Origin: Gammaproteobacteria bacterium
Lineage (GTDB): Bacteria; Pseudomonadota; Gammaproteobacteria; Ga0077536
Assembly (NCBI GenBank): GCA_016191285.1
Contig: JACPPA010000014.1
Span: forward strand, 62,001 to 126,000
Length of the DNA: 64,000 bases
Reading direction: 5' to 3'
The notes under the pieces were generated by a model, which was given only the letters and a program-made list of their open reading frames with translations, did not search any database and was not told the origin of the DNA. Shown here one piece after another: positions 4,813 through 43,652 of the stretch (position 1 is the stretch's first letter; each line of letters opens with the position of its first letter). The translations under genes and the position numbers were made by a program.

Positions 4813-5535
4813 CTAAGACTCGACCTGCACTGGTACCGCTAATAAATAGCCCTCGTTGCGCACGGTCTTGATCAGTTGCGGGGCGCGCGCATCGTCACCC
4901 AGTTTCTGGCGTAGCCGGCTTACCTGAAGATCGATCGAGCGATCGAAGGGATCGCTTTCACGGCCTCGGATCAAGGCAATGATTTGATCGCGCGATAAGG
5001 GCCGGTGGGGATGTTCGACAAACAATTTCAGCAATCGAAACTCGGCGCTAGATAACGAAATGACCACCCCCGCGCGATCCACCAAGTGGCGCGCCGCGAG
5101 ATCGAGCGTCCACTCCGCGAAGCGATAGACGCGTGCGGTTGGCGGGACGAGATTAGGTGGGAGGGCTTCGGTCCGGCGCAGAACGCTACGAATGCGCGCC
5201 AGTAACTCACGCGGCTCGAACGGTTTGGCGAGATAATCATCGGCGCCCATCTCGAGACCGACGATACGATCGATCGGGGCGCTACGCGCGGTTAGCATGA
5301 TGACGGGTAGACGCGAATTCGCCCGCAGTTCGCGGCACAAGGCGAGACCATCGTCACCCGGCAGATTAAGATCAAGCACGATCAAATCGGGCCGGGCCGT
5401 GATCAACGTCTTGCGCATGGATGCGCCATCCGCCGCGCTTAGCGTGCGCAGCCCGTTGCTTTCGAGATATTCCGCCAACAGCGAACGGATCTCGCGATCG
5501 TCATCAACAATCAGGATTTGCGGCGCTAATTCCAT
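4813..5535 (-). CDS. OmpR/PhoB-family response regulator, CpxR-like
   Basis: I choose the ATG at 5535 (protein MELAPQILIVDDDRE, 240 residues). This matches the usual OmpR length of about 240, although the frame is open to 5622. The receiver domain has the acidic cluster DDD at residues 11-13, the phospho-acceptor Asp55 in LIVLDLNLPG, and the conserved Lys in YLAKPFEPREL. The C-terminal winged helix has LSSAEFRLLKLFVEHP and VSRLRQKLGDD, ending ...TVRNEGYLLAVP. It is the first gene of a two-gene operon with the kinase and lies divergent to the CpxP/Spy-like gene, the arrangement seen for cpxRA and cpxP in enterics. Confidence 0.9.
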   Translation of the reverse strand: MELAPQILIVDDDREIRSLLAEYLESNGLRTLSAADGASMRKTLITARPDLIVLDLNLPGDDGLALCRELRANSRLPVIMLTARSAPIDRIVGLEMGADDYLAKPFEPRELLARIRSVLRRTEALPPNLVPPTARVYRFAEWTLDLAARHLVDRAGVVISLSSAEFRLLKLFVEHPHRPLSRDQIIALIRGRESDPFDRSIDLQVSRLRQKLGDDARAPQLIKTVRNEGYLLAVPVQVES

Positions 5536-5738
5536 GCGTTCATTATCGGTTAAGGGACGTTTACGGCACGATCTGATTTGTAACGCGATATCACCCGCGA
5601 CTCGCGCGACAAACCCTGACACAAATCAAGCGGCCGTCGATACAACGCGATACAAAATTGCGGTGTTAAGTCATTTCCTGTTCACAACGCTCGTGTTTAT
5701 AGTGTCATCACACTAATTAGCACCTACCGAGACACGCC
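5536..5738. promoter_or_regulatory. Divergent promoter region with a phased direct repeat
   Basis: Between the response regulator and the CpxP/Spy-like gene lies a direct repeat GATACAA-N3-GATACAA (5639-5655, period 10 bp). This is the phased half-site layout typical of OmpR-family regulators. A perfect inverted repeat TAGTGT-N4-ACACTA follows at 5700-5715, 24 bp before the rightward start codon. I infer autoregulation plus control of the exported stress protein. The consensus differs from the enteric CpxR box, so the assignment rests on position and periodicity. Confidence 0.45.
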
Positions 5739-6260
5739 ATGACCAAGACCCACGATAAAACCACGCGCCTCTTCCGCGCACTCGCGTTCAGTCTACTCTG
5801 TTGCAGCGGCCTCGCCGCCGCCGCCGAACACGCGAGCGGCAAACGCTGCGATCACGAGATGCATCAAGGCCATCATGGGCCGATGACCGCGGAGAAAATG
5901 CGCGAAATGATGGAGCATCGCATGCAGCGTCTGCACGAGCACTTGGCGTTGACGGCGCCACAGGAGCCGGCGTGGACCGAGTTTCATACGCAAATGAAGC
6001 CAGCCGACGAAGCCCCGTTACCCGACTTCGAAGCCTTGGAAAAATTGCCGGCTCCCGAACGCATGACGCGTAAACTCGCGCTGATGAAAACCCATCAAGC
6101 CTGGATGGAAAGCCGCATACCGGTAGTCACGGCTTTTTATCGGCAACTGACCGCGGCTCAACAGAAAACGTTTGATAATGAATTCATGCACTTTGGGCAT
6201 GCGCACCCTCCGCATGGCGGAATGCGGTGCAAGCAGCACCCCGATCACACCGCGCAATGA
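5739..6260 (+). CDS. Periplasmic CpxP/Spy-like LTXXQ protein
   Basis: This 173-residue protein has a signal peptide (FRALAFSLLCCSGLAAAA) and is predicted to be periplasmic. The mature part has two LTxxQ motifs, LTAPQ near residue 71 and LTAAQ near residue 138, the hallmark of the CpxP/Spy/CnrX group. These proteins are helical chaperones or metal-stress sensors that act on the cognate kinase. The His/Met-rich N-terminus (HEMHQGHHGPM) and C-terminus (HFGHAHPPHGGM) could bind metal ions such as copper or nickel. Divergence from the CpxRA-like operon supports a feedback role. Confidence 0.85.
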   Translation: MTKTHDKTTRLFRALAFSLLCCSGLAAAAEHASGKRCDHEMHQGHHGPMTAEKMREMMEHRMQRLHEHLALTAPQEPAWTEFHTQMKPADEAPLPDFEALEKLPAPERMTRKLALMKTHQAWMESRIPVVTAFYRQLTAAQQKTFDNEFMHFGHAHPPHGGMRCKQHPDHTAQ

Positions 6261-6265
6261 CATGG

Positions 6266-6324
6266 CGACGCAACCGCGAAACTTCATAGGCCTCCCCCTA
6301 AGCTAGTCCCACGCGGTTGCGTCG
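6266..6324 (+). terminator. Strong 13-bp inverted repeat after the CpxP/Spy-like gene
   Basis: CGACGCAACCGCG (6266-6278) pairs perfectly with CGCGGTTGCGTCG (6312-6324) across a 33-nt loop. It starts 6 bp after the stop codon. No run of U residues follows, so it may be a 3' stabilising hairpin or a Rho-aided terminator. Confidence 0.4.
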
Positions 6325-6484
6325 TCTGTCACCCGGAACTGATGGCAGCCTATGAAGTCCAACTTCCCGCTATCACCAAAATTCCAATCTCAACTGAAAT
6401 CCACGGGTCCTGCTGGGCGGAATGAGGATACGGCGGTTAATTTGCCGTCGACGAAATGTTGAACGATTGGAGAAAGGAAACTCG

Positions 6485-6895
6485 ATGAGATCATCTATCC
6501 GTAAACAGATCGCGATGGCGCTCGCGATTGCGGTAACTTTGCCCGTTGGCGTCACCCCTGCATCCGCCGACGACCATGACGACGAGCATGGGGGATTCCA
6601 TGGCGGCCATGATGGATTCCATGGTCATGGTCATGGCCATAGCGATTTCAATCTTGGCTTCTCCTTGGGTGGGCCGTTGTTTTGGGGGCGCGACCCCTTT
6701 TATGACCCTTATTACTACCGCCGGCCGATCTACGTTGAACCGCCGGTTTATATCGAACAACGCCCACCGGTGTACACGCAACAACCCACAACGGTTTGGT
6801 ATTACTGCCAAGCGCCCGCCGGTTACTACCCCTATGTGCAGCAATGTACCCAGGCCTGGATTCCGGTGGATCCCAGAACGGCACCACCACGTTAA
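6485..6895 (+). CDS. Small exported His- and Tyr/Pro-rich protein of unknown function
   Basis: The ATG at 6485 is chosen because GGAGAAAGGA lies just upstream and a clear signal peptide follows (IAMALAIAVTLPVGVTPASA). The mature protein of about 110 residues begins with a His/Gly/Asp-rich stretch (DDHDDEHGGFHGGHDGFHGH) that could bind metal. It continues with a Tyr/Pro-rich region (YIEQRPPVYTQQP). It ends with a conserved-looking core YYCQAPAGYYPYVQQC, whose two cysteines may form a disulfide. Proteins with this YYC...YYPYV...C ending are common in proteobacteria without assigned function. It lies 27 bp before a lipoprotein gene and is probably co-transcribed with it. Confidence 0.75.
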   Translation: MRSSIRKQIAMALAIAVTLPVGVTPASADDHDDEHGGFHGGHDGFHGHGHGHSDFNLGFSLGGPLFWGRDPFYDPYYYRRPIYVEPPVYIEQRPPVYTQQPTTVWYYCQAPAGYYPYVQQCTQAWIPVDPRTAPPR

Positions 6896-6922
6896 CGGTC
6901 GCGAAGCCAAGGAATGTTATCC

Positions 6923-7477
6923 ATGAATCGAATCCCTCAGGTGTGCACGCTTGCTCTTGCCCTCGGCGTTGCCGGCTGTGTGAACATCCCCACGGGGCCC
7001 GGCGTGATGGTGCTACCGAGCCAAGGTAAACCGTTTGAAATATTCCGGGCGGAACAGGCCGACTGCCAAGGCTATGCGCAACAAACCATTGGCGTTCCGG
7101 CCGGCGTAAGTGCACAAAACAGCGCAACGCAAAGTGCCACGGTCGGGACCGTGGTCGGCGCGGCTGCCGGCGCTTTATTGGGTTCAGCGTCAGGGAACGC
7201 TGGAGCGGGCGCTGCGATCGGCGCCGGCACCGGCCTCCTCTTTGGCAGTGCCGCGGGAGCTTCGGCTTACGACCAGTCCGGAATGACCATGCAGGATCGT
7301 TACGACGCGGCCTACCTGCAATGCATGTATGCCAAGGGCAATCAGATCCCGATGTCCGCCGGATTCCAAACTCCGGCGCCAAGCGCCTCGAGTGCGTATC
7401 CGCCGCCCAACGCGCCGCCACCGCCCGGCGCGTATGGTGCGCCACCGCCCGGCACGTACCCGCCGCCACCGCGCTAA
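6923..7477 (+). CDS. Glycine-zipper lipoprotein
   Basis: I choose the ATG at 6923 (AAGGA is 9 nt upstream) over the in-frame ATG at 6914. The product is about 184 residues, with a lipobox LGVAGC and lipidated Cys at residue 19. A glycine zipper (GTVVGAAAGALLGSASGNAGAGAAIGAG in pieces, about residues 76-110) suggests a membrane-inserting helical hairpin, as in the YMGG/OmpA-like glycine-zipper families. The C-terminus is low-complexity Pro/Ala/Gly (PPPNAPPPPGAYGAPPPG). It pairs with the preceding exported protein, and both look like envelope proteins. The function is unknown. Confidence 0.75.
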   Translation: MNRIPQVCTLALALGVAGCVNIPTGPGVMVLPSQGKPFEIFRAEQADCQGYAQQTIGVPAGVSAQNSATQSATVGTVVGAAAGALLGSASGNAGAGAAIGAGTGLLFGSAAGASAYDQSGMTMQDRYDAAYLQCMYAKGNQIPMSAGFQTPAPSASSAYPPPNAPPPPGAYGAPPPGTYPPPPR

Positions 7478-7512
7478 CAGCGAACGCTCGATAATTCAAG
7501 ATTCGTCAGCTC

Positions 7513-7932
7513 ATGGATAAAGTGCGGTGGTTTAGTCGTTCTTTACCCAAGCGACGTTCAGCGAACCTTGAAATCTCTCACGAACAATCGTTTGAGCGAT
7601 CGGATCAAGATTCCAGACGGGAACTAGAAGAAGATCTCTGTAAGCACATTTTCACCGTGTCCGCGGGAATGGTGGGCGTGTGTCTTACGGTGATTGGGAT
7701 GGTTCGCATCGTGATCTCCATCCGCAAAGTGGATACTCTTGCCGACGATTTTATCGCGGTCAATGCCATCCTATTTCTGACCTCATGTCTTGCCTCCTAC
7801 TTTGCACTTCGCACGCGCAATGTAACCAGGATGCATCGAATGGAGCGCTTCGCCGATTTGGTATTTATTCTCGCGATGGTCGTCATGACTTGCATTTGCG
7901 TCTTTATTCCCTACGCAGTCTCGGCCTATTGA
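7513..7932 (+). CDS. Small membrane protein, three predicted helices
   Basis: This 139-residue protein has a charged, mostly hydrophilic N-terminal 45 residues. Three hydrophobic segments follow, at about residues 48-70 (FTVSAGMVGVCLTVIGMVRIVI), 82-98 (AVNAILFLTSCLASYFA) and 115-137 (VFILAMVVMTCICVFIPYAV). I do not recognise a named family. It follows the glycine-zipper lipoprotein gene by 35 bp on the same strand. Its lower GC content is in keeping with a membrane protein. Confidence 0.6.
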   Translation: MDKVRWFSRSLPKRRSANLEISHEQSFERSDQDSRRELEEDLCKHIFTVSAGMVGVCLTVIGMVRIVISIRKVDTLADDFIAVNAILFLTSCLASYFALRTRNVTRMHRMERFADLVFILAMVVMTCICVFIPYAVSAY

Positions 7933-7965
7933 GACTTTAATCGCTCGCCAGGCGGCGCCGTTACT

Positions 7966-8742
7966 TCAATTCATGCACCAGCCGTGACTGACCACCAGCG
8001 ATTGGCCAGTCAACGCATTGCTTGGAAAGGTCGCGAACGTGAGCGCAACTTCGGCGACGTCTTCAACGGTCGTGAATTCGCCGTCGACGGTATTGGCGAG
8101 CATTATTTTCTTCACCACGTCTTGTTCGGAGATGCCGAGAGTTTTAGCTTGTTCCGGGATTTGTTTTTCGACCAGCGCGGTCTTCACGAACCCGGGACAG
8201 ATTACGTTCGCGCGCACACCGTGCGCCGCGCCTTCCTTTGCCACGACACGAGCGAGGCCAAGCAAACCGTGTTTGGCGGTGACATAGGCTGCTTTGAGGG
8301 GCGACGCCTCCTTGGAATGCACCGAGCCCATATAGAGGATGGCGCCGCGGCCTTGTCGATACATATGCGGCAGGCAGGCGCGTGTGGTTAGAAAGGCGCC
8401 GTCGAGATGGATCGCGAGCATGCGTTTCCACTCCGCAAATGGAAATTCCTCCACGGGATGAACGATCTGAATCCCCGCGTTCGAAACAAGAATATCGATC
8501 GCGCCGAAATGCGCCACGACTTTTGCGACGCCATCGTCGACCGCAGCCTCTTCGGCGACGTTCATGGCAATGCCCAACGCACGGGTCGCGTCGCCGAGCG
8601 TTGCCGCCGCGGCCGCGGCTTCCTTGGCCTCGAGATCAGCGACGGCGATGCGGCCACCGGCAGCAGCGAAACGTTGTGCGATACCAAAGCCGATGCCGCG
8701 CGCGGCGCCGGTAATGAGACATACTTTGTTTTCGAGCTGCAT
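7966..8742 (-). CDS. 3-hydroxybutyrate dehydrogenase (SDR family)
   Basis: The start at 8742 ([18 protein letters not shown], 258 residues) is preceded by GAGGAT. The longer upstream frame has no family support. Visible SDR features are the cofactor motif TGAARGIG (residues 10-17), NAGIQ, the catalytic Ser in MGSVHSKE and the YVTAKHG motif. The segments [19 protein letters not shown] and [18 protein letters not shown] match the D-3-hydroxybutyrate dehydrogenase subgroup. The reaction is (R)-3-hydroxybutyrate + NAD+ to acetoacetate + NADH, used in polyhydroxybutyrate and ketone-body turnover. It lies downstream of kup on the same strand, with a 192-bp gap. Confidence 0.88.
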
Positions 8743-8934
8743 GACAAGATCCTCGTCGCGGAGAGTTCGAATTCGTGACGTCACCCACCCGACGCGTCCA
8801 TGGAACTTCGGTGGTTGCCGCTCGAGCGTTTCATTCGCGCGTGGAAGGAGTGACCGGAAAGACAATAGCACAGTAAGCGGCTGCCGGATGGCGCGCCATG
8901 GAATCAATCTCCGGCCCTCGCGCGAACCTAATGA

Positions 8935-10848
8935 TCAGATCGCTAATTGCCGGCCACTCTCGACGACGTTGTCACTTGGGAGCTTGAAGAAGTCAGTAAC
9001 GTGGTGCGCATTTCTCTCCATCGCGGAGAATAGGGCGGTTTCCCACGCCGGTAGTCCCGTACCGTCCTCTCTATGCACAACGATTGCATGGCCTATGTAA
9101 TAAGTGACGTCGTCGAGCGGAATCGAGCAACCTCGTTGATGCGCCATATCGAGCATGGCGGGAACATCTGGCCGCTCCATAAAGCCATAACGCACCCTTG
9201 CACGCCAGCAATTCGGCGCAACCGTCGCTAGCGATAAGCGGTCTGCGTCCCCCACCCACGGCACAGCCGCTATTTCGACGTTCAGCACGAGCAGATAGGC
9301 ATGCAACGCTCGATTGTGATTGACGTGCCAGACCATCACCGGTGGCGTGTCGCGCAGCGTTCGCGTCAAGAATACCGCCGCCCCAGGTACTCTCGGGATG
9401 TTCCGTGACGCAACGGAGGCGAGGAATTCGTCGATTGGGATCAGTCGTTCGCCGAGAGTTTTCGAAACAACCGTCGAGCCGTGATGCCAAATCAACATTG
9501 TTCCGTAAACAACGCTCGCGAGCAGCAGGGGCACGTAACCGCCCTCGACAATCTTGACTATATTCGCCAAAAAGAACGCACTATCGATGCACAGGAAGAG
9601 CCCAGCAATCGTTCCTGCCGCGAACAAACCCCAGCCCCACACCTCGCGCATCGCGATATACAACAGCACGGAAGTCAGCAGCATTGTCGCGGAAACGGCA
9701 ATGCCGAAAGCGGAAGCTAGATTGCTGGACTGCCCGAAGAATAGCGTCAGACCGATGGTGACGATCATCAGCAACCAGTTAACAACTCCAACATAGATCT
9801 GGCCATAACCGGCTTCGGAGGTTTGGGTGATCCGCAAACGCGGTAGCCAGCCAAGTTGAATTGCTTGCCGGGTCATCGAAAATGCTCCGGTGATGATCGA
9901 TTGGCTGGCGATGATCGTTGCAAGCGTAGCCAGGATAACGAAAGGAATGAGGAAGGGTCCCGGACACAGGCGGTAGAAAATGTTATCGGCTACCGGCGCG
10001 CCTTCCATCACGATAGCAGTCTGACCTGCGTAACTTAGTACAAGGCTCGGCAGAACGATGGCCGACCACGCGAGGCGAATGGGTCCGCGGCCGAATTGGC
10101 CCATGTCCGCGTACAGTGCTTCCGCTCCGGTCACGCACAGGAACACCCCGCCGAGGACGAGAAAACTCGAATAACCGTTCGAAAATAAGTAATGCAGTCC
10201 ACGGAGCGGATTTATCGCAATCAAGACCGACGGATGTTGGACAATTCCCCAGGCGCCGAGCACTGCAATGGTAAAAAACCAAAGGCCCATAATCGGACCA
10301 AACGCCTTGCCGATTCTCGACGTCCCGAGTGGTTGGATGCCAAACAGCGCAACCAGGATCGCGATCGATATCGGTAAGATATAGGGTTTCAAAGTCGGCG
10401 CCGCGAGGTTGAGTCCCTCGATTGCGGATAGCACTGATATCGCGGGAGTAATGGCGCCGTCGCCGTAGATTAACGCCGCCCCAAACAGCCCGGCCGCGAC
10501 AATCATGGGCCTCCGATGCTGCTTGGTACCGAGCAGCGCCATCAAAGCGAGAATCCCTCCTTCACCATCGTTGTCGATCCGCATCGCGACGATCACATAT
10601 TTTACCGACGTGACCATGATAAGCGTCCACAGAATCAGTGAAAGGGAACCAAGCGCGGTGTCGGCCTGAGGATTTCCACCGCTCATATCGAGGACCGTCT
10701 TCAGCGTATACAGCGGGCTCGTGCCGATGTCACCGAAGACTATGCCGAGAGCAGAGACCGCGATGCCAGCGCGATCTGAAAGATTGGACGCGTCGCTTGC
10801 CCCTCGTTTCGATCCTTTCGGCATGGCTTGCATGCTCCGCATGACCAC
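8935..10848 (-). CDS. kup: Kup-type potassium:proton symporter
   Basis: This 637-residue protein is close to E. coli Kup in length (622). The N-terminus shows the family signature ALGIVFGDIGTSPLYTLKTV (about residues 34-53), followed by about twelve membrane helices including FGAALIYGDGAITPAISVLS. A hydrophilic cytoplasmic C-terminal domain of about 170 residues follows (from about 465; RIPGAAVFLT-like region and NVVESG end). It imports K+ with protons, mainly in acid or hyperosmotic conditions. The gene stands alone on the minus strand. Confidence 0.93.
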   Translation of the reverse strand: MVMRSMQAMPKGSKRGASDASNLSDRAGIAVSALGIVFGDIGTSPLYTLKTVLDMSGGNPQADTALGSLSLILWTLIMVTSVKYVIVAMRIDNDGEGGILALMALLGTKQHRRPMIVAAGLFGAALIYGDGAITPAISVLSAIEGLNLAAPTLKPYILPISIAILVALFGIQPLGTSRIGKAFGPIMGLWFFTIAVLGAWGIVQHPSVLIAINPLRGLHYLFSNGYSSFLVLGGVFLCVTGAEALYADMGQFGRGPIRLAWSAIVLPSLVLSYAGQTAIVMEGAPVADNIFYRLCPGPFLIPFVILATLATIIASQSIITGAFSMTRQAIQLGWLPRLRITQTSEAGYGQIYVGVVNWLLMIVTIGLTLFFGQSSNLASAFGIAVSATMLLTSVLLYIAMREVWGWGLFAAGTIAGLFLCIDSAFFLANIVKIVEGGYVPLLLASVVYGTMLIWHHGSTVVSKTLGERLIPIDEFLASVASRNIPRVPGAAVFLTRTLRDTPPVMVWHVNHNRALHAYLLVLNVEIAAVPWVGDADRLSLATVAPNCWRARVRYGFMERPDVPAMLDMAHQRGCSIPLDDVTYYIGHAIVVHREDGTGLPAWETALFSAMERNAHHVTDFFKLPSDNVVESGRQLAI

Positions 10849-28229: not shown

Positions 28230-28312
28230 GGAGCCGCTTTGAGCTTCGAATCTTTGTTGAAATCCATTCGCGGCTAAAGCCGCTCCCACAAAAGCCGCTC
28301 CCACAAAAGCTG
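28230..28312. repeat. REP-like palindromic units, degenerate
   Basis: Between def and the YaiI gene, a degraded unit (GTGGGAGCCGCTTTGAGC) is followed by a well-kept inverted unit (TTCGCGGCTAAAGCCGCTCC, about 28267-28286). A short tandem duplication of its end (AAAGCCGCTCCCAC) follows. The unit matches the REP cluster at 36.0-36.2 kb. Confidence 0.7.
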
Positions 28313-30494: not shown

Positions 30495-31502
30495 ATGAAC
30501 GCCGTCGTTGAATTCGTCAATGTCCTGGCTAGTAAACCAGACGCCGTGTCGGGCTATAAAAGTTTCACCTTGGGCAGCTTTACTTTTTGCCGCGACGAGT
30601 ATTTTGCGCACGTGTCGTGGACGACGCGCAGCGGAAAGCCGATGAGTCATACGCTCGACGCCGGCAATTTTTTGCGCGCGCTGATGCGCGACGTGGCGTG
30701 GGGCTTCTTCTATGGCTGGGTCAACTTCGACGCCGTGATTGGGACCGTTAATCGCTACGAATCGGTCGATCTCTACGCCGGCTCGTATAACGGCACGATG
30801 AAGGAAGCGGAGATCGATTTGCTCGAGAATTTTCCCACGGCGCAGATCCGCGCGACTTTCGAACAAATGCTCGACGATTGGACGAACGAGGGATTCGATC
30901 CGTTCGCCGCCCCGCAAGAAACCGGCTCGGCGCACGGCCGCAAACGGGGCAACAACACGGCCAAAGTCACGCGCGCACGCGAGCTCGCGAAACGCTGTGT
31001 GGGATTGAAGGGCGATTTGGCGATGCGCAGCGACACTAGCGGCGCGCCCATCAACCGCGCGTTTGCCGATGTGCCGCAAGAGGCACCGGAACTCCATCCT
31101 GAACCCGGCTTCGAAAACGACGTCCACGCCTTTAACTTGTTCGCCTTCTTAAGTCGCTCGCAGGTGACGTGGAATCCGAGCTTCACGTCCGTCGTCAAAT
31201 ACAGTTTCATGTGCCCGACCACCGAGGAACACATCCTGCCGATCATTCACGGCAACGATCGGGTGGAATGGTTCTTTCAAATGTGCGACGAAATCCATTG
31301 GGACTGTGGCGACAAGAACACCGGCAAGCCGCTCGCCCGCGTGATCATGAAAGCCGGCGACATGGCGGCGATGCCCGCCTACTGCCGTCATCAAGGCTTC
31401 AGTCCCAAACGCTCGATGTTGCTGGTGTGGGAAAACGGCTCGCCGACCTTGGCCTATGAAATTCAGAACGGCAAAAGCCCGGAAATACCTGTCCAATTCT
31501 GA
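30495..31502 (+). CDS. Hydroquinone 1,2-dioxygenase, large subunit (HapD/PnpD-like)
   Basis: This 335-residue catalytic subunit is close to the roughly 38-kDa HapD/PnpD. Candidate Fe ligands are Asn254 and Glu258 in IHGNDRVEWFF and His299 in AYCRHQGFSPKR. Their spacing (N+4 = E, N+45 = H) equals the Asn258/Glu262/His303 set that I recall from the PnpCD structure. GAGGT lies 8 nt before the start. No hapE/hapF-like genes (4-hydroxymuconic semialdehyde dehydrogenase, maleylacetate reductase) follow, so the lower pathway must be elsewhere. Confidence 0.88.
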   Translation: MNAVVEFVNVLASKPDAVSGYKSFTLGSFTFCRDEYFAHVSWTTRSGKPMSHTLDAGNFLRALMRDVAWGFFYGWVNFDAVIGTVNRYESVDLYAGSYNGTMKEAEIDLLENFPTAQIRATFEQMLDDWTNEGFDPFAAPQETGSAHGRKRGNNTAKVTRARELAKRCVGLKGDLAMRSDTSGAPINRAFADVPQEAPELHPEPGFENDVHAFNLFAFLSRSQVTWNPSFTSVVKYSFMCPTTEEHILPIIHGNDRVEWFFQMCDEIHWDCGDKNTGKPLARVIMKAGDMAAMPAYCRHQGFSPKRSMLLVWENGSPTLAYEIQNGKSPEIPVQF

Positions 31503-36007: not shown

Positions 36008-36194
36008 TGTGGGAGCCGCTTTAGCGGCGAATCGTTCAAGCCTTCAATCCTCGTCCAGGCAACCAGGATTCGCGGCTAAAGCCGCTCCCACAGTACAGGC
36101 TCCACCACGCACACTGGATTTGTGGGAGCCGCTTTAGCGGCGAATTTTCGAGAGCCTTCCATTCGCGGCTAAAGCCGCTCCCACATTAGCAGCC
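36008..36194. repeat. REP cluster: four alternating palindromic units
   Basis: Four near-identical 24-bp units alternate in orientation at about 36008-36032, 36068-36092, 36120-36145 and 36170-36194. Each contains GTGGGAGCCGCTTTAGCGGC or its complement. The arrangement is that of bacterial interspersed mosaic elements. It fills the gap between the convergent SAF oxidoreductase and Mtd-like genes. No REP-associated transposase gene is in the window. Confidence 0.85.
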
Positions 36195-36229: not shown

Positions 36230-37096
36230 CTATTCAGGCTTCGCGTCGAGACGAGTCTTCTGTCGCACGGCGCCGGTGCTGCCATGCGGCGTTCGGAGCA
36301 CACTGTCAGCGCCTTTTTCCAACTCTCGCGCTTCGTCGGCCAAGCGTGCGGCGCTGCGCATCATCTCGTGGCCCGCAGCGACCATGCGGATATAGCGCGC
36401 CGGATCTTGTTCCTTGAAGCAGCCATCGGCGGTGACCGCCGAGGTCGACTCGGCGATCGATAGTGCGGCATACGCTTTGGCCGCCGCGTACGGATTGCCG
36501 AAACCACCCGCGGCCACCGCCTTGTCGGGCGTAACGGTGATGCGCGGATACGTCGGTGCGGTACCGGCCCTGAGCGACTCAATCACGCGATCGAGTTCGG
36601 TTTGCACCAAACGCAATACGCCGGTCGCGGCCAACACCTTGATCAGATCGGCATTGAACAGCGCCATCTCGGTGGGATCGAGAAACTCGCGCCGCGCGCC
36701 GATCATCGAATCCGCCGGAAAAATCATGAAGCCCTGTCCGTCCGGCACGCTCATCACCTGTTTGCCCTCGTCGTTTTTCTTGAAGAAAGCTTTTTTCGAC
36801 GGGCCATCGGAGAGCGTGATCAGTGGGATCCCGGCCGCTGCCACCGCTTTGCGCGAATTCGCGGGGCCGCCGAGTGCGGCGTTGGGGCTGACCAGTAATA
36901 GGAGTTGTGGTTGATAGGCGAGGATTGCGGCGGTTGGTTCGGCGCAAGATTCCGGATCGAGTTTGGCCCCGCAGGTGAAAGCGCGAACTTCAAGATCTTC
37001 GCGATCGGCACGTTCGTCGAGCAGCAGATCGAGAAGGGGAGCCGCGCCGATGCAGCCTAGTTTTAGTACGCCGAGTTTGAATACGCCCGATGCCAT
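36230..37096 (-). CDS. mtd: Homologue of F420-dependent methylene-tetrahydromethanopterin dehydrogenase (Mtd)
   Basis: This 288-residue protein is close to archaeal Mtd in length (about 275-285) and collinear with it as I know the family: LGVLKLGCIGAAPLLDLLLD, then ERADREDLEVR (residues about 8-38). The best-kept block is DSMIGARREFLDPTEMALFN followed by ADLIKVLAATG (about 128-160). Next come GGFGNPYAAAKAYAALSIAE, ADGCFKEQ, and AAGHEMMRSAARLADEAREL near the end. GAGGAG precedes the ATG. In archaea Mtd interconverts methylene- and methenyl-tetrahydromethanopterin with coenzyme F420. Here the gene is last in line behind boxR-boxC-boxB, separated from boxB by a 166-bp gap with a hairpin repeat. 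BoxC releases formate, so a C1 role is conceivable, but cofactor use is unproven. Confidence 0.82.
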   Translation of the reverse strand: MASGVFKLGVLKLGCIGAAPLLDLLLDERADREDLEVRAFTCGAKLDPESCAEPTAAILAYQPQLLLLVSPNAALGGPANSRKAVAAAGIPLITLSDGPSKKAFFKKNDEGKQVMSVPDGQGFMIFPADSMIGARREFLDPTEMALFNADLIKVLAATGVLRLVQTELDRVIESLRAGTAPTYPRITVTPDKAVAAGGFGNPYAAAKAYAALSIAESTSAVTADGCFKEQDPARYIRMVAAGHEMMRSAARLADEARELEKGADSVLRTPHGSTGAVRQKTRLDAKPE

Positions 37097-37148
37097 CGGA
37101 GTCTCCTCAGGAATTAAAATTGTTGGTGCGAAAAGTTCTTCTTATTTT

Positions 37149-37260
37149 CCCCTCACCCCGGCCCTCTCCCGCAAGGGGAGAGGGAGTGTGTCGTTCGACG
37201 CTGCGTTGACCATTTCGTCCTGTCCCCTCTCCTCTTGAGGGAGAGGGCTAGGGTGAGGGG
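37149..37260. repeat. 112-bp inverted-repeat element, copy 1
   Basis: Its outer arms are CCCCTCACCCCGGCCCTCTC... on the left and ...GAGAGGGCTAGGGTGAGGGG on the right, enclosing a less conserved centre. It lies just past the boxB stop codon. It can form a long hairpin and may attenuate transcription into the Mtd-like gene. Its left 40 bp are identical to the reverse complement of the right 40 bp of copy 2 (41911-42024). Confidence 0.85.
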
Positions 37261-37262
37261 GA

Positions 37263-38681
37263 TCACAGCTGCACGTACTCGTACGCGATCGGCATATTGT
37301 TAATGCCGCGATCAGGGGGTGCGATCCATCCGGCCATTTTGCCCGGCGTGACGACTCTTTGCATCAAGCTTTTGACGTGCGCGCGATCGGGTTCGCTCGG
37401 CAACCAAAGCGTTAGCCCTTCGGCGTAGGCGGCCTCGGAAATTCGGCGGCCTTGCAGGTCAGTCGGAATGTTGGCCCACGACCCAATGCCGCGCCGAAAC
37501 TGTGTGGAGGGCAGGGTTAGGACGACGTTGACGCCGGCGCGTTTAATCATCATGTTCCAGCGCTTCATGCCCATCTCGCAGTCCTTCACGTAGGCACCGC
37601 GTGCGACTTCGTTCATCGCGTTACGCAAGGGAACTTGTTCGATTCTGGTTGAGTTCGCGTCGTCCGGGACGGTGAGTTCATAGCTCGCATCGAGGCACAC
37701 GTGCTCGGTATAGAGGCCTTCGTCGGGCCGGCCTTTAATCCCATTGGCGAACGTGGTGGCGGCGTTCGACGAAACTTCGGAGCCGAACAAATCGAGCGAC
37801 GACGTGAACCAAAAGTTGAGATACCGCTGCAGCAATGGGAAGTCGATACCGCCCGCGCATTGAATGCTCGCCGGATCGTCGGTGTTCTGTTCTTTCATCA
37901 ACTCCAAGGTGCGGCGGACCACGCGGCTTAAGCCGGTTTCGCCGACAAACATGTGATGCGCTTCTTCCGTCAACATGAAGCGGCAGGTGCGCGCCAGCGG
38001 ATCGAACGCCGATTCGGCGAGGCTCTTCAATTGATACTTGCCGTCGCGATCGGTGAAATACGTAAAGCAGAAAAACGATAACCAATCATCGATCGGCTCA
38101 TTAAAGGTGCCCAAGATGCGCGGTTTGTCGACATCACCTGAATGCCTCGACAGTAATTCTTCGGCTTCCTCGCGCCCATCGCGTCCGAAGTAGGCGTGTA
38201 ACAAATACACCATCGCCCACAGGTGCCGCCCTTCCTCGACATTGACCTGAAACAAATTGCGCAGATCGTAAAGCGACGGACAGGTGAGGCCCAACAGACG
38301 TTGTTGCTCGACCGAGGCCGGCTCGGTATCGCCTTGAGTAACGATTAAGCGGCGGAACTGCGCGCGAAATTCGCCCGGCACCTGTTGCCACACCGGTTGG
38401 CCCAACAGATCGCCAAAGCCAATCGTGCGTGCCGGATCCTGATCGGCTAAAAAAATGCCCCAGCGATAATCCGGCATCTTCACCCGGCCATAGCTCGCCC
38501 AGCCTTCGACGTCCACGCCAATGGCCGTGCGCAAATACACATCGTTGCCGCCGAATTGCGGACCCATCTCGTTCCACCATTCGATGAAACGCGGCTGCCA
38601 ATGTTCCAACGCGCGTTGCAAGGTGCGATCGCTCGCGAGATTGACGTTGTTCGGAATGCGTTCGCTGTAATTAATGCTCAT
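37263..38681 (-). CDS. boxB: Benzoyl-CoA 2,3-epoxidase, oxygenase subunit BoxB
   Basis: This 472-residue class I diiron protein matches BoxB throughout (MSINYSERIPNNVNLASDRT; PDYRWGIFLADQDPARTIGF). The six predicted iron ligands fall at E120, E150, H153 (NVEEGRHLW), D211, E240 and H243 (LTEEAHHMF), as in the characterised Azoarcus enzyme. BoxB epoxidises benzoyl-CoA at C2-C3 using O2 and electrons normally delivered by the reductase BoxA. It starts 21 bp after boxC. No boxA is present in the window. Confidence 0.95.
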   Translation of the reverse strand: MSINYSERIPNNVNLASDRTLQRALEHWQPRFIEWWNEMGPQFGGNDVYLRTAIGVDVEGWASYGRVKMPDYRWGIFLADQDPARTIGFGDLLGQPVWQQVPGEFRAQFRRLIVTQGDTEPASVEQQRLLGLTCPSLYDLRNLFQVNVEEGRHLWAMVYLLHAYFGRDGREEAEELLSRHSGDVDKPRILGTFNEPIDDWLSFFCFTYFTDRDGKYQLKSLAESAFDPLARTCRFMLTEEAHHMFVGETGLSRVVRRTLELMKEQNTDDPASIQCAGGIDFPLLQRYLNFWFTSSLDLFGSEVSSNAATTFANGIKGRPDEGLYTEHVCLDASYELTVPDDANSTRIEQVPLRNAMNEVARGAYVKDCEMGMKRWNMMIKRAGVNVVLTLPSTQFRRGIGSWANIPTDLQGRRISEAAYAEGLTLWLPSEPDRAHVKSLMQRVVTPGKMAGWIAPPDRGINNMPIAYEYVQL

Positions 38682-38702: not shown

Positions 38703-40382
38703 TTAAACCCGTTCCCAATTAAATTGCGCCTTGCTACCGGTGCCAAAAACTTTGAGTGCGCCGTGTTCGCCGACCGCGTTGGGTCGAATGAAAATCCAGT
38801 TTTGCCAGGCGGACAAGCGACCGAAGACGCGCGTTTCCATGCTTTCTTGACCGCCAAAACGTAACGACGCCTCCATGCCGGTCAGCGCATCGGGTGACAA
38901 GCTCGCGCGTTCCTCCACGGCGATGCGAACTTCGCCGGCCCAATCGATATCGTCCGGCGCGAAGGTGATGAGTCCGAGCGCGAGCGCTGCTCCCGCATCG
39001 ACCGCCTCACCGACGCGCGCCTTGGCCGCAGCCACTGGCGCGGTCTCGCCACAGAAGCGAGTGAGCAACCGAGTCTGATGATTGACCATCGGATAACGAC
39101 CAAAATTCGCCGCTGATAATGTGATGTGAGGCGCTTCTTCCGGCGTATCCGGTAATTGGAGCATGTAGCTGCGATCGGCAGCCAGCAGCAGTTCGGCGAG
39201 GGTGCCGGCGAAACAGGAATCTTGATCCACAATCGCGAACAACGTGCGCGATGAAACATCGAGGCGCGCCAGCGTTCGCCGCAACATGCCGACCGTTTCG
39301 GCAACGAACCAGTCGCGCGCGTTGGCGGCAATAATCGCATCAATCTCGAGCACGACACTGGCCTTGCCGCGAGTCTTCAAGATCCACGTGCCGATCTCGA
39401 GTTCGTTCAAGCGTAGCAGCAGAATCGCGTCATCCAGTTCGCGCGCCATTGCAAGCGGCCACCACGCGGCGCCCGCGGCATGAATGCCGACGACATCAAC
39501 GGGGCCTGCCGTGTCAGGCGCCGTGATCGTGATGGTCGCGGTGCGTGCTGCGCGATCAAGGCTGACATCAACCTGTACGTAATGCAGCCCGCCGTCATCG
39601 ATCACGCGCGTCAACGGCGTCAGCGTGATGCCTTGACCGGCTGCACCGCGTGGCGCGGCGGCGCTCAGCGCTTGAATTCGCGCCGCCGTCGCGTCTTTGA
39701 ATTGTTGCGGCCTGGCGATATGGTCGACCAGACCCCATTGTTGTGCGCGATCGCCGCGCACGCCTTCGCTGGTGGTGCAAAACACATCCGCTAAATCACG
39801 GCGCACGCGGCGTTTGTCGATCAAGCGCGTTAACCCGCCGGTCCCGGGCAGCACGCCCAGCAGCGGCACCTCCGGCAAGCTCACGGTCGACGAACGATCA
39901 TCGATCATCAAAATTTCATCGCAGGCGAGTGCGAGTTCGTAACCACCACCGGCGACGGTGCCGTTAACGGCGGCGAGAAAACGCAAGCCTTGATGAAGAC
40001 TAGAATCCTCGATCCCGTTACGCGTTTCGTTGGTGAACTTGCAGAAATTCACCTTCCACGCGTGACTCGACAGTCCCAGCATGTAGATGTTGGCGCCCGA
40101 GCAAAACATGCGTTCCTTCATGCTGGTGAGCACCACCACGCTGACCTCGGGATGTTCGAAGCGAATGCGCTGCAAGACATCGTAGAGTTCCATGTCCACG
40201 CCGAGGTCGTACGAATTAAGCTTGAGCTTATAGCCGGGCTTAATACCCTTATCTTCGGCGACGTCCATCGCGAGCGTGGCGACGCTGCCTTCGTAACTCA
40301 CGCGCCAGTGCGCGTAAGAGTCTGGACTGCGGTCATACAGCACATAATTCGTCGGGGTCGATGCTTGTAGAACAGCATTCAT
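38703..40382 (-). CDS. boxC: 2,3-epoxybenzoyl-CoA dihydrolase BoxC
   Basis: This 559-residue protein belongs to the crotonase superfamily but is twice the usual length, as is normal for BoxC. Recognisable parts are DRSPDSYAHWRVSYEGSVAT (about 18-37), the oxyanion loop region MKERMFCSGANIYMLGLSSH (about 88-107) and AAVNGTVAGGGYELALACDE. It adds two waters to the ring epoxide and releases formate plus 3,4-dehydroadipyl-CoA semialdehyde. Its start lies 6 bp after the boxR stop. The semialdehyde dehydrogenase BoxD is not in the window. Confidence 0.95.
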   Translation of the reverse strand: MNAVLQASTPTNYVLYDRSPDSYAHWRVSYEGSVATLAMDVAEDKGIKPGYKLKLNSYDLGVDMELYDVLQRIRFEHPEVSVVVLTSMKERMFCSGANIYMLGLSSHAWKVNFCKFTNETRNGIEDSSLHQGLRFLAAVNGTVAGGGYELALACDEILMIDDRSSTVSLPEVPLLGVLPGTGGLTRLIDKRRVRRDLADVFCTTSEGVRGDRAQQWGLVDHIARPQQFKDATAARIQALSAAAPRGAAGQGITLTPLTRVIDDGGLHYVQVDVSLDRAARTATITITAPDTAGPVDVVGIHAAGAAWWPLAMARELDDAILLLRLNELEIGTWILKTRGKASVVLEIDAIIAANARDWFVAETVGMLRRTLARLDVSSRTLFAIVDQDSCFAGTLAELLLAADRSYMLQLPDTPEEAPHITLSAANFGRYPMVNHQTRLLTRFCGETAPVAAAKARVGEAVDAGAALALGLITFAPDDIDWAGEVRIAVEERASLSPDALTGMEASLRFGGQESMETRVFGRLSAWQNWIFIRPNAVGEHGALKVFGTGSKAQFNWERV

Positions 40383-40388
40383 GCTGTG

Positions 40389-41318
40389 TCACTCCTTGCC
40401 GTTAATGGGATGGGTGTTGAGCGCCGCCACCAGCGCCTCGAACACGGTCGAAAGATCTTTACCCGAGGTATCGAGGGTCACGTCGGCTTGCGCATAGCTT
40501 GGCCCGCGTTCGTTCAAAATGCCGCGCAGATCGTCCATGGCCTCGGCGTGCCCCGCCATCGGCCGCATATCGCCTTGCGCGATCACCCGCGACATATGTT
40601 CCTCGGGCGCCGCTTTGAGCCATACCGTGTGGCAGGCGCTCAGGAGCAGCGCGTAGGTGTCGGGTGCCGAGACAATACTGCCGCCAGTCGCGATCACGCA
40701 GCGCGGGTGGCTTTTCACCACTGTTTCCAGACACCGCCGTTCGAAGCGACGGTACGCGCTTTGCCCGTAGAGTAAAAACAATTCTTCGAGCGAGGTGCCA
40801 GCCGCGGACCCGATCTCGCGATCGAGTTCCACGAAGGGACATGCCAGACGAATCGCGAGCTTCGCGCCCAGTGTGGACTTTCCGGCGCCGCGTAAGCCCA
40901 GCAGCGCCACGCGCTCAGCACGTGGCGCGTGGTGTTCACCGAACTCGCGCTGCAACTGGCGACGAATTCGTCCGAGCGCCGGGGCGGGCAGACTCTTCAG
41001 TAATTCTTGGAGCAAGACGAGTTCAATCGGCGGTGGTGCTCGCTCGTCGACTAACTCCGCCAGACTAAGATCGAGCGCTCCGGCGATTCGTTGTAACACC
41101 AGGACCGACGCGTTGCCGCGGCCGGTTTCGAGATCAGCGAGGTAGCGTTCCGAGACCTGCGATTGCGTCGCGAGCAGGCGGCGACTGGTGCCACGCCTAG
41201 CCCGCGCTTGACGTACACGCGCGCCAAGATTGTCGAGGAGCGCGGTTCCGTCTGTCGCGGGCGTCGACTGCAGGGGCTCGGGTTCAATAGTTCTGGCGAT
41301 CTCTGAGGTTCGTCGCAT
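40389..41318 (-). CDS. boxR: Benzoyl-CoA-responsive repressor BoxR (HTH plus shikimate-kinase-like domain)
   Basis: This 309-residue protein has an N-terminal HTH_3 domain (VRQARARRGTSRRLLATQSQ ... ERYLADLETGRGNAS, about residues 35-70). The C-terminal domain resembles shikimate kinase, with a Walker A GLRGAGKSTLG (about 143-153). This fusion is the hallmark of BzdR/BoxR repressors, which release DNA when benzoyl-CoA binds. It is first in the leftward boxR-boxC-boxB set and divergent from the flavodoxin and benzoate-CoA ligase genes, so it can control both directions. Confidence 0.95.
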   Translation of the reverse strand: MRRTSEIARTIEPEPLQSTPATDGTALLDNLGARVRQARARRGTSRRLLATQSQVSERYLADLETGRGNASVLVLQRIAGALDLSLAELVDERAPPPIELVLLQELLKSLPAPALGRIRRQLQREFGEHHAPRAERVALLGLRGAGKSTLGAKLAIRLACPFVELDREIGSAAGTSLEELFLLYGQSAYRRFERRCLETVVKSHPRCVIATGGSIVSAPDTYALLLSACHTVWLKAAPEEHMSRVIAQGDMRPMAGHAEAMDDLRGILNERGPSYAQADVTLDTSGKDLSTVFEALVAALNTHPINGKE

Positions 41319-41910: not shown

Positions 41911-42024
41911 CCCCTCACCCTAGCCCTCTCCCGCAAGGGGAGAGGGGATTGGACGGCGATGGTCGACGCGAGAGGGAAAGGCCACACTCCCTCTCCCCTT
42001 GCGGGAGAGGGCCGGGGTGAGGGG
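41911..42024. repeat. 114-bp inverted-repeat element, copy 2
   Basis: The left arm is CCCCTCACCCTAGCCCTCTC... and the right arm ...GAGAGGGCCGGGGTGAGGGG, with an imperfect centre. It lies between the flavodoxin and ligase genes. It is in the opposite orientation to copy 1 at 37149-37260; the shared 40-bp arm is identical. Confidence 0.85.
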
Positions 42025-42068
42025 ATTGATGGTGGGGATTATTGACGATTTACTCGAAAGGAGCTTTC

Positions 42069-43652
42069 GTGAGTGCTCTTTTATCCACCGCGGATCACAG
42101 TGTATCGCCGCCGCGCATTCACATTCCGCGCACTTACAACGCCGCTTTCGATCTAATTGAGCGGAATTTACTCGCGGGACGTACGAGCAAGCTCGCGTAT
42201 ATCGATGATGCTGGCAGCTACACCTACGGTGAATTAGCCGCGCGCGTAAATCAGACGGCCAATGCGCTGCGCGCGCTAGGACTTGGCCAGGAAGATCGCG
42301 TGATGGTGGCGCTGCTCGACACCATCGATTTCCCGGCGGTGTTTTTAGGCGCGATAAAAGCTGGCATCGTGCCCATCGCCGCCAACACGCTGCTCACCAC
42401 CAACGACTATCGATTCATGCTGAATGATAGTCGCGCAAAAGCGCTCGTCGTTTCGGCATCGTTGTACGCACGCTTTGAACCGGCGATCGCCGACGCGCCG
42501 CATCTGCGTCAAGTAATCGTGTCCGGCGACAGTACCCCGCCGCAAACTAATCTTAAGGCCTTAATGAGTAAGGAATCGACAGAGGCTTCGTCGGCGCCGA
42601 CCACGAATGATGAACCGTGCTTTTGGCTGTATTCGTCGGGTTCCACAGGTGTACCGAAGGGCACGGTGCATCACCATTCGAGCTTGATCCACACCGCCGA
42701 ACTTTACGCGCGGCCAATTTTGAAATTGTCCGAACACGACATCGTTTTCTCCGCCGCCAAACTCTTCTTCGCTTACGGTCTTGGCAATAGTTTGAGTTTT
42801 CCGTTGGCCGTGGGCGCCACGGCCATCTTGATGGCGGAGCGCCCGACACCGGACGCGGTCTTTAAGCGGCTAACGGAATTAAAACCGAGTGTGTTCTACG
42901 GCGTGCCGACACTCTACGCGGCGATGCTTGCCAGCGCCGACGCGCCACCGACACAGTCCTTAACGCTGCGCGTTTGCACTTCGGCCGGCGAAGCACTACC
43001 CGCGGAAGTGGGTCGTCGCTTCACCGCGCGCTACGGCGTCGACATTTTGGACGGCATTGGCTCAACCGAGATGTTGCACATCTTTCTATCGAATCGCGTG
43101 GGCGAAGTTCGCTACGGCACCACCGTCAAGCCGGTCCCGGGTTATCAGATTCGACTGTGCGCCGAAAACGGTGACGAAGTCGGCGCCGATGAACTTGGCG
43201 AATTGCAGATCAATGGCCCCACCGCGGCATTGATGTATTGGAACAATCGCGCGCAATCGCGCGACACCTTTATGGGTCCGTGGACTCGTGCTGGCGACAA
43301 GTACACTCGCGATGCCGCGGGCTACTACACCTATGGCGGGCGCACCGACGATATGTTGAAGGTCAGCGGGCAGTATGTATCGCCATTCGAAGTGGAAGCC
43401 GCGTTGATGACTCATCCCGCGGTGCTCGAGGCAGCCGTCGTCGGCCGCCAAGATGAAGATGGTCTGACCAAGCCGCAAGCCGTCGTCGTCTTAAACGAGG
43501 GTGAAACGCCGGATCCCGAGACTGAAGTCGCACTCAAAGCGCATGTGAAAGCCTTGCTCGCGCCGCATAAATATCCACGGTGGATCACCTTCACGCAGGA
43601 GTTGCCGAAAACCGCGACCGGTAAGATCCAACGGTTTAAACTACGGGGGTAA
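42069..43652 (+). CDS. Benzoate-CoA ligase
   Basis: The start is the GTG at 42069, 6 nt after AAGGAG, giving 527 residues; an upstream TTG in frame has no ribosome site. It is an ANL-superfamily enzyme with the phosphate loop YSSGSTGVPKGTVHHHSS, the adenylate motif GIGSTEMLHIFLSN, the hinge YGGRTDDMLKVSGQYVSP and the C-terminal Lys in PKTATGKIQRFKL. It matches bacterial benzoate-CoA ligases (BclA/BadA): ATP + benzoate + CoA to benzoyl-CoA, the substrate of BoxB. Its TAA overlaps the ATG of the next gene (TAATG). Confidence 0.92.
   Translation: MSALLSTADHSVSPPRIHIPRTYNAAFDLIERNLLAGRTSKLAYIDDAGSYTYGELAARVNQTANALRALGLGQEDRVMVALLDTIDFPAVFLGAIKAGIVPIAANTLLTTNDYRFMLNDSRAKALVVSASLYARFEPAIADAPHLRQVIVSGDSTPPQTNLKALMSKESTEASSAPTTNDEPCFWLYSSGSTGVPKGTVHHHSSLIHTAELYARPILKLSEHDIVFSAAKLFFAYGLGNSLSFPLAVGATAILMAERPTPDAVFKRLTELKPSVFYGVPTLYAAMLASADAPPTQSLTLRVCTSAGEALPAEVGRRFTARYGVDILDGIGSTEMLHIFLSNRVGEVRYGTTVKPVPGYQIRLCAENGDEVGADELGELQINGPTAALMYWNNRAQSRDTFMGPWTRAGDKYTRDAAGYYTYGGRTDDMLKVSGQYVSPFEVEAALMTHPAVLEAAVVGRQDEDGLTKPQAVVVLNEGETPDPETEVALKAHVKALLAPHKYPRWITFTQELPKTATGKIQRFKLRG

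Follow-up and report, generated by a model that had tools for sequence, protein, structure and literature searches.

The locus described here raises a simple question: why should a gammaproteobacterium carry, at the end of its genes for the aerobic degradation of benzoyl-CoA, a relative of the archaeal gene mtd, which encodes the F420-dependent methylene-tetrahydromethanopterin (methylene-H4MPT) dehydrogenase? BoxC releases formate, and the preliminary description of the window (the whole stretch of 64,000 nucleotides that was analysed) proposed that Mtd, possibly with an F420-like cofactor, captures or oxidises this carbon. The substrate of Mtd is, however, methylene/methenyl-H4MPT and not formate, and the evidence assembled below indicates that Mtd probably helps to burn formaldehyde rather than the formate of benzoate.

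The mtd gene and its box neighbours

The mtd gene is an open reading frame that starts with ATG and spans exactly positions 36230-37096 on the minus strand of the window; it encodes 288 amino acids and is preceded, 6 bases 5' of the ATG, by a putative ribosome-binding site, GAGGAG, read from the sequence (37103-37108, minus strand). The protein matches the PF01993 (MTD) profile over positions 1-274 of 274 (E 9.8e-103; 343.7 bits for a cut-off of 25), exceeds the cut-off of the NCBIfam equivalog NF002162 (336.6 bits versus 297), contains the block DSMIGARREFLDPTEMALFN and matches the sequence of the Methanopyrus kandleri Mtd of solved structure (PDB 1qv9, E 1.6e-66). The AlphaFold2 model, built from a 24-row alignment, has a mean pLDDT of 90.2, and structure comparison returns 1qv9 as the best solved structure (TM 0.88/0.90; Z 33.6 with an rmsd of 1.9 Å across 276 residues), the next chain reaching a Z of 12.4. 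An alignment of 29 Mtds, of which 7 are bacterial and 22 archaeal, has 49 invariant columns out of 290, MIGARREFLDP included, and the dN/dS ratios of mtd, 0.04-0.21 over 8 usable pairs (the pair G377-G380, which shows a two-codon shift, was left out), indicate purifying selection. As judged from sequence and modelled fold, the window gene is thus confirmed to encode a genuine full-length Mtd: the archaeal-type homologue that the preliminary description had recognised is borne out, and the profile search that it recommended gives a significant match over the full length.

Several other views of the gene were considered and rejected. Its composition (GC 61.6%, GC3 69.6%) is no outlier among the neighbours measured and does not look foreign; a mobile element finds no match on plasmids and no confirmed match on viral contigs; and contamination does not fit a gene that lies here on a 164-kb contig and is present in 22 of the 36 genomes of the family.

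On the minus strand of the window, mtd comes after boxR, boxC and boxB in that order, as had been described. The gene of the BoxR-type regulator, with a helix-turn-helix and a shikimate-kinase-like domain, occupies 40389-41318 (NF006015, 381 bits for a cut-off of 204), boxC, for the 2,3-epoxybenzoyl-CoA dihydrolase, 38703-40382 (TIGR03222, 917 bits for 712.3), and boxB, for the benzoyl-CoA 2,3-epoxidase subunit, 37263-38681 (TIGR03225, 726 bits for 499.1), whilst a benzoate-CoA ligase family protein is encoded on the plus strand at 42042-43652 (TIGR02262, 804 bits for 375). The gap of 166 bp between boxB and mtd contains a strong pair of REP-like palindromes (37150-37260) for which one long stem is possible (-80.2 kcal/mol, z -6.7) and which recurs at 41924-41946 and 41989-42011; this stem makes read-through from boxB into mtd uncertain. 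Dispersed REP-like palindromic repeats of two families, GTGGGAGC... and CCCTCTCCC..., with zero expected by chance in shuffles, are found in the window at 28268-28289, 36009-36184, 37162-37247 and 41924-42011. At 30495-31502, a gene with the N-terminal domain of the large subunit of hydroquinone 1,2-dioxygenase (PF18191, E 5e-64) is a second aromatic ring-cleavage gene near the box genes.

Distribution and gene order of mtd among relatives

The order of the genes in the window would suit an operon with boxRCB in which Mtd serves the box pathway by capturing or oxidising the C1 unit released by BoxC. Such a role can be confronted with the distribution of the genes. PF01993 exceeds its cut-off in 3 of 369 genomes of the class, all from the window's family (1 further match is weak), and in 1 of 398 genomes of the phylum, the window's own (2 further matches are weak). 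Within the order, which was sampled as one family of 36 genomes, mtd is present in 22, mch in 22 over cut-off with a weak match in G213, boxB in 30 and cofE in 34. Both mtd and mch occur in 20 genomes, mtd only in 2, mch only in 2 and neither in 12 (Fisher 5.6e-6, the co-occurrence tests quoted here ignoring the relatedness of the genomes). The two genomes with mtd in which mch was not found, G378 and G393, are 81% and 57% complete, and those with mch only are G385 and G390. Among the 23 good genomes (completeness of 90% or more, contamination of 5% or less), the same counts become 17, 0, 1 and 5: mch accompanies mtd in 17 of 17 and is absent from 5 of the 6 without mtd. Wherever both genes are present (20 genomes), they lie on different contigs.

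The corresponding counts for mtd and boxB are 21, 1, 9 and 5 over the 36 genomes, a weak association (Fisher 0.024) that speaks for a box role, and 17, 0, 5 and 1 over the good genomes, where no association is seen (Fisher 0.26); mtd is missing from 9 of the 30 boxB genomes. Within genera, G213 (g1) and G392 (g277) keep boxB and have neither mtd nor an mch over cut-off. For mtd and cofE the counts are 22, 0, 12 and 2 (Fisher 0.14), a cofE-type ligase being present in 22 of 22 mtd genomes and F420 genes also in 12 genomes without mtd. Across the 36 genomes, mtd tracks mch and not boxB, and the survey of co-occurrence with box genes that the preliminary description had proposed gives no association among the good genomes.

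Gene order leads in the same direction. It is true that mtd and boxB share a contig, at most about 7 kb apart, in 12 of the 22 mtd genomes (G379 being entered among them through its two contig ends), and all 12 belong to the genera g1 and g273. The DNA between the two genes was read in 10 of the 12 (G376 and G381, with 7 kb, were left out). They are direct neighbours in six, G000 (the window's genome), G369, G374, G375, G378 and G379, at distances of 156-690 bp, which, with the strong palindrome in the window, make an operon uncertain; in G369 an ORF of the opposite strand lies between them. In G373, G377 and G380, boxB is separated from mtd by a block of DUF2126, ATP-grasp/Alpha-E and transglutaminase genes, and in G372 by DUF2126 alone. 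Beyond mtd comes an Alpha-E gene and, in several genomes, a gene without a Pfam match that we take to be Anbu-like. In G370, G371 and G091, mtd lies inside the block and boxB on another contig. This block of DUF2126, circularly permuted ATP-grasp, Alpha-E, transglutaminase and Anbu-like genes holds mtd in three genera (L031:8084-17387 and the matching stretches of L028, L029, L033, L034, L036, L037 and L137). In G213 the box genes are followed by the block, and mtd is missing between the transglutaminase and Alpha-E genes, which are 42 bases apart; near mtd in the window, no block gene was found. From G213 and from the mtd genes embedded in the block, it appears that mtd first adjoined the block and that the box adjacency in the window is secondary.

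In the other genera with mtd, boxB is on other contigs or, in G393, was not found, and the three BoxB proteins read there are 58-59% identical to that of the window. No sign of C1 metabolism came from 10 ORFs neighbouring the divergent mtd genes (six in g274/g277/g279, two in G091, another two in g3 and G393). Close to mtd in G369, L030:11459-12277 encodes a quinoprotein-dehydrogenase-associated SoxYZ-like carrier (TIGR04557, 241 bits for a cut-off of 140), which is followed by riboflavin genes and a serine hydroxymethyltransferase gene. Taken with the substrate of the enzyme, which is not formate, these distributions and gene orders render a role of Mtd in the box pathway extremely improbable, and the link to BoxC formate made in the preliminary description gives way to one with mch, the gene that mtd follows across the family.

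The F420 and H4MPT genes and the fate of mtdB

If Mtd works in H4MPT-bound C1 oxidation with F420, the host has to provide both cofactors. The F420 operon of the window's genome, on L077 (G000:C49:165500-185400), looks complete: cofGH (5176-7629; 1168 bits for a cut-off of 1018), cofC (7623-8294; 161.6 for 105), cofD (8362-9327; 274.7 for 257) and cofE (9499-10263; 256.6 for 181) all lie on the minus strand and all exceed their cut-offs. A 2-methylfumaryl-CoA isomerase-like gene (557 bits in G000, under the cut-off of 725) adjoins the operon (L077:2116-16286, L086-L089) in 5 of 5 genomes read, G000, G400, G387, G213 and G374, and a CaiB-type CoA-transferase gene flanks its other side in G000, G387 and G374; the two resemble parts of the 3-hydroxypropionate bicycle.

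The H4MPT locus, L076 (G000:C53:196000-215900), comprises fhcC, fhcD, fhcA, fhcB, the beta-RFAP synthase gene, mtdB, mch, a MptN-like ligase gene, fae and a TIGR03123 gene. The products of fhcC, fhcD, fhcA, mch and fae exceed their cut-offs, that of fhcB stays below the equivalog cut-off (237 bits versus 328) as does the MptN-like ligase, and the beta-RFAP synthase is over TIGR00144 and under NF040726; mtdB, missed by the NCBIfam scan, was detected with PF09176 and is uninterrupted. Beside this cluster are encoded a PQQ methanol/ethanol dehydrogenase (682 bits) with a DYDG stretch, presumably the mark of the lanthanide type, a MoxJ-like protein, a formate dehydrogenase alpha subunit (747 bits for a cut-off of 666) and a NuoE/NuoF-like protein that stays below its cut-off. 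PQQ-dependent alcohol dehydrogenases have 15 matches in the window's genome and as many as 28 in its relatives. By its gene content, the host is therefore equipped for both cofactors. The F420 and H4MPT genes whose presence the preliminary description had suggested verifying are there, and its guess of an F420-like cofactor for Mtd is upheld by gene content as a plausible one.

MtdB and MtdA use NAD(P). A second PF09176 protein of the window's genome, about 30% identical to MtdB, is encoded next to a PF04961 cyclodeaminase-type gene, and the pair is taken for MtdA and FchA. The uninterrupted mtdB and the MtdA-like gene would make Mtd dispensable for this step in the window's genome; with mtdB present in L076, a simple replacement of MtdB by Mtd was rejected there, Mtd being an addition.

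The strongest indication of a function of Mtd in the H4MPT pathway comes from the relatives in which mtdB has been lost or broken. The stretch around mch was read in all 22 genomes with an mch over cut-off; G375 and G377, whose contigs stop short of the mtdB position, drop out, which leaves 20 readable clusters. In 14 of these, mtdB is a single stop-free frame (cut by a contig end in G314). In the other 6 it is absent or broken: in G379, G390, G391 and G400 the beta-RFAP synthase gene directly adjoins the ATP-grasp gene, in G370 the frame is shifted (L125:5135-6045), and in G371 about half the length is left, without a PF09176 match (L123:3172-3657). In 5 of these 6 genomes mtd is present: in G370 and G371 it reads as a single 288-codon frame, with a dN/dS of 0.037 between the two; G391 and G400 each give a match without a break, and in G379 the gene is divided between two contig ends. 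In G391, which is 98% complete, the PF09176 profile search found no protein at all, so Mtd is the sole candidate found for the step. The exception is G390 (82% complete), where the H4MPT cluster is present and neither mtdB nor mtd was found; G385 is the reverse case, with mch and mtdB and without mtd. G390 apart, mtd thus fits an alternative to MtdB in the H4MPT pathway, co-occurring with mch and present where mtdB is lost.

The same genomes bear on the direction of the reaction. The archaeal Mtd reaction goes both ways, according to the part of a 2021 F420 review covered here (PMC8498797), and the window's genome carries both MtdB and Mtd, so that Mtd might run in reverse, F420H2 reducing methenyl-H4MPT for the use of formate-derived C1 units in biosynthesis while MtdB oxidises. 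We consider this unlikely: it needs a reverse Fhc, the MtdA-like and cyclodeaminase-type gene pair offers a folate route in the window's genome, and the genomes without a whole mtdB retain mch and fhc together with Mtd, which suggests the oxidative direction for Mtd.

An oxidative Mtd would produce F420H2, and a candidate outlet is found in the gene order. A gene of the F420H2-dependent quinone-reductase type (PF04075) lies head to head with mtd, on the opposite strand, in G369 of g1 (L030:9054-9710) and in G091 of g2 (L037:9062-9910), scoring 76.6 and 97.5 bits against TIGR00026, whose cut-off is 46; mtd is thereby tied to F420 by gene order too. No relative of this reductase was found in the searched parts of the window's genome. 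The cut-off of the Fno profile is exceeded in 0 of 36 family genomes (weak matches in 19), and the FrhB_FdhB_C domain, present in 29 of 36, has no match in the window's genome, a further point against the link with BoxC formate.

It may be argued, finally, that only the fold of Mtd has been kept, that its cofactor has changed to NAD(P) or its substrate has changed, and that the F420 link is a relic, since MtdB and MtdA already perform the same chemistry with NAD(P) and F420 genes also occur in relatives without Mtd. The equivalog-level score of the window Mtd, the invariant columns common to bacterial and archaeal Mtds, the purifying selection, the F420 ligase found with every mtd and the reductase gene that adjoins mtd in G369 and G091 make such a relic highly improbable.

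Origin, proposed model and known systems

In a scan of species genomes, 6 of the best 80 loci (231 were confirmed) come from this lineage, and 74 carry archaeal titles. The nearest archaeal Mtds among the matches listed are those of Thorarchaeota (L149, 64%; L146, 63%; L150, 61%), followed by Archaeoglobi with up to 56%. The Mtd tree, which the preliminary description had also proposed, contains 56 rows: 19 of the 22 bacterial sequences (G376, G379 and G381, being fragmentary, were left out) and 37 of the 74 archaeal loci listed, picked by hand. The 19 bacterial Mtds form one clade (support 100/99), which is joined by one Lokiarchaeota and six Thorarchaeota rows in a larger clade (100/98); once seven long branches are removed, the bacterial clade has 99/98 and its joint clade with four Thorarchaeota rows 100/99. 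An insert of 9 residues before MIGARREF is present in 19 of 19 bacterial rows and in the seven archaeal rows of the joint clade (8 residues in L210); of the remaining 30 archaeal rows, 27 lack it and 3 were unmeasured. Bacterial Mtd was probably gained once, from Asgard-like (Thorarchaeota-like) archaea; the donor we infer from the joint clade, and the direction of transfer is suggested by the wider archaeal spread of Mtd. A single in-frame stop lies close to the end of the Thorarchaeota mtd on chromosome CP070658.1 (L149:10001-10849). In two records titled Klebsiella pneumoniae, CAMATU01 and CAMCQE01 (L141, L144), the mtd is that of this lineage, and the titles look wrong.

The model that best explains the observed homology and fold of the enzyme, the gene content, the co-distribution, the pattern of loss and the phylogeny, and in which we have good though not full confidence, is that of a once-gained Mtd acting as an F420-linked branch of formaldehyde oxidation. 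The ancestor of the gammaproteobacterial lineage would have acquired mtd once from an Asgard (Thorarchaeota-like) donor. Formaldehyde, which may arise from methanol in a family rich in PQQ alcohol dehydrogenases or from aromatic demethylation, would be converted by Fae into methylene-H4MPT, which would be oxidised to methenyl-H4MPT either by Mtd, with F420 as the hydride acceptor, or by MtdB, with NAD(P). Mch and then Fhc would lead onward to formate, formate dehydrogenase carrying out the last step. Mtd would stand beside MtdB in most species and act as its replacement in several that lost mtdB; its F420H2 would be spent on F420H2-dependent reductases, for example of the PF04075 type, and the place of mtd beside boxB would be a by-product of gene order. 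We lean, by a small degree, towards the broader proposal that F420 is a working acceptor of aerobic C1 oxidation throughout the order, by way of the Asgard-derived Mtd, and the sole one for that step where mtdB is absent, as in G391; such species would then depend on F420 to oxidise formaldehyde.

In the parts of the literature covered, the F420 review (PMC8498797) gives Mtd for archaea only and treats the reason why Proteobacteria make F420 as an open question, PMC5020050 reports that H4MPT genes are widespread in bacteria and does not mention a bacterial F420-type Mtd, and titles and abstract openings of open-access papers name no bacterial Mtd. This lineage would offer a concrete answer for proteobacterial F420, namely that it accepts the hydride from formaldehyde bound to H4MPT. 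The lineage also suggests that an enzyme of C1 metabolism passed from Asgard-like archaea into bacteria and there, on several occasions, persisted after the native NAD(P)-type enzyme had been lost; the archaeal enzyme and the bacterial pathway would then be interchangeable.

Compared with known systems, the aerobic benzoyl-CoA pathway is the neighbour of mtd in the window, with BoxB, BoxC, the BoxR-type regulator and the ligase all over cut-off, but Mtd itself does not belong to the box enzymes, nor is it tied to boxB in the good genomes. With the MtdB and MtdA of methylotrophs (PF09176), which are NAD(P) enzymes, Mtd shares the presumed step from methylene- to methenyl-pterin, although it belongs to a different Pfam family. 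With archaeal Mtd (EC 1.5.98.1; M. kandleri, 1qv9), it shares homology over the whole length, the fold and the invariant core blocks, whereas its host is a bacterium whose bacterial-type H4MPT locus also holds mtdB, and its 9-residue insert is absent from most archaeal Mtds measured. The Thorarchaeota enzymes come closest: the nearest three listed (L146, L149, L150) are 61-64% identical, have the same insert and fall in the same clade, within which the bacterial rows form a separate clade (support of 100/99 in the first tree and 99/98 in the second).
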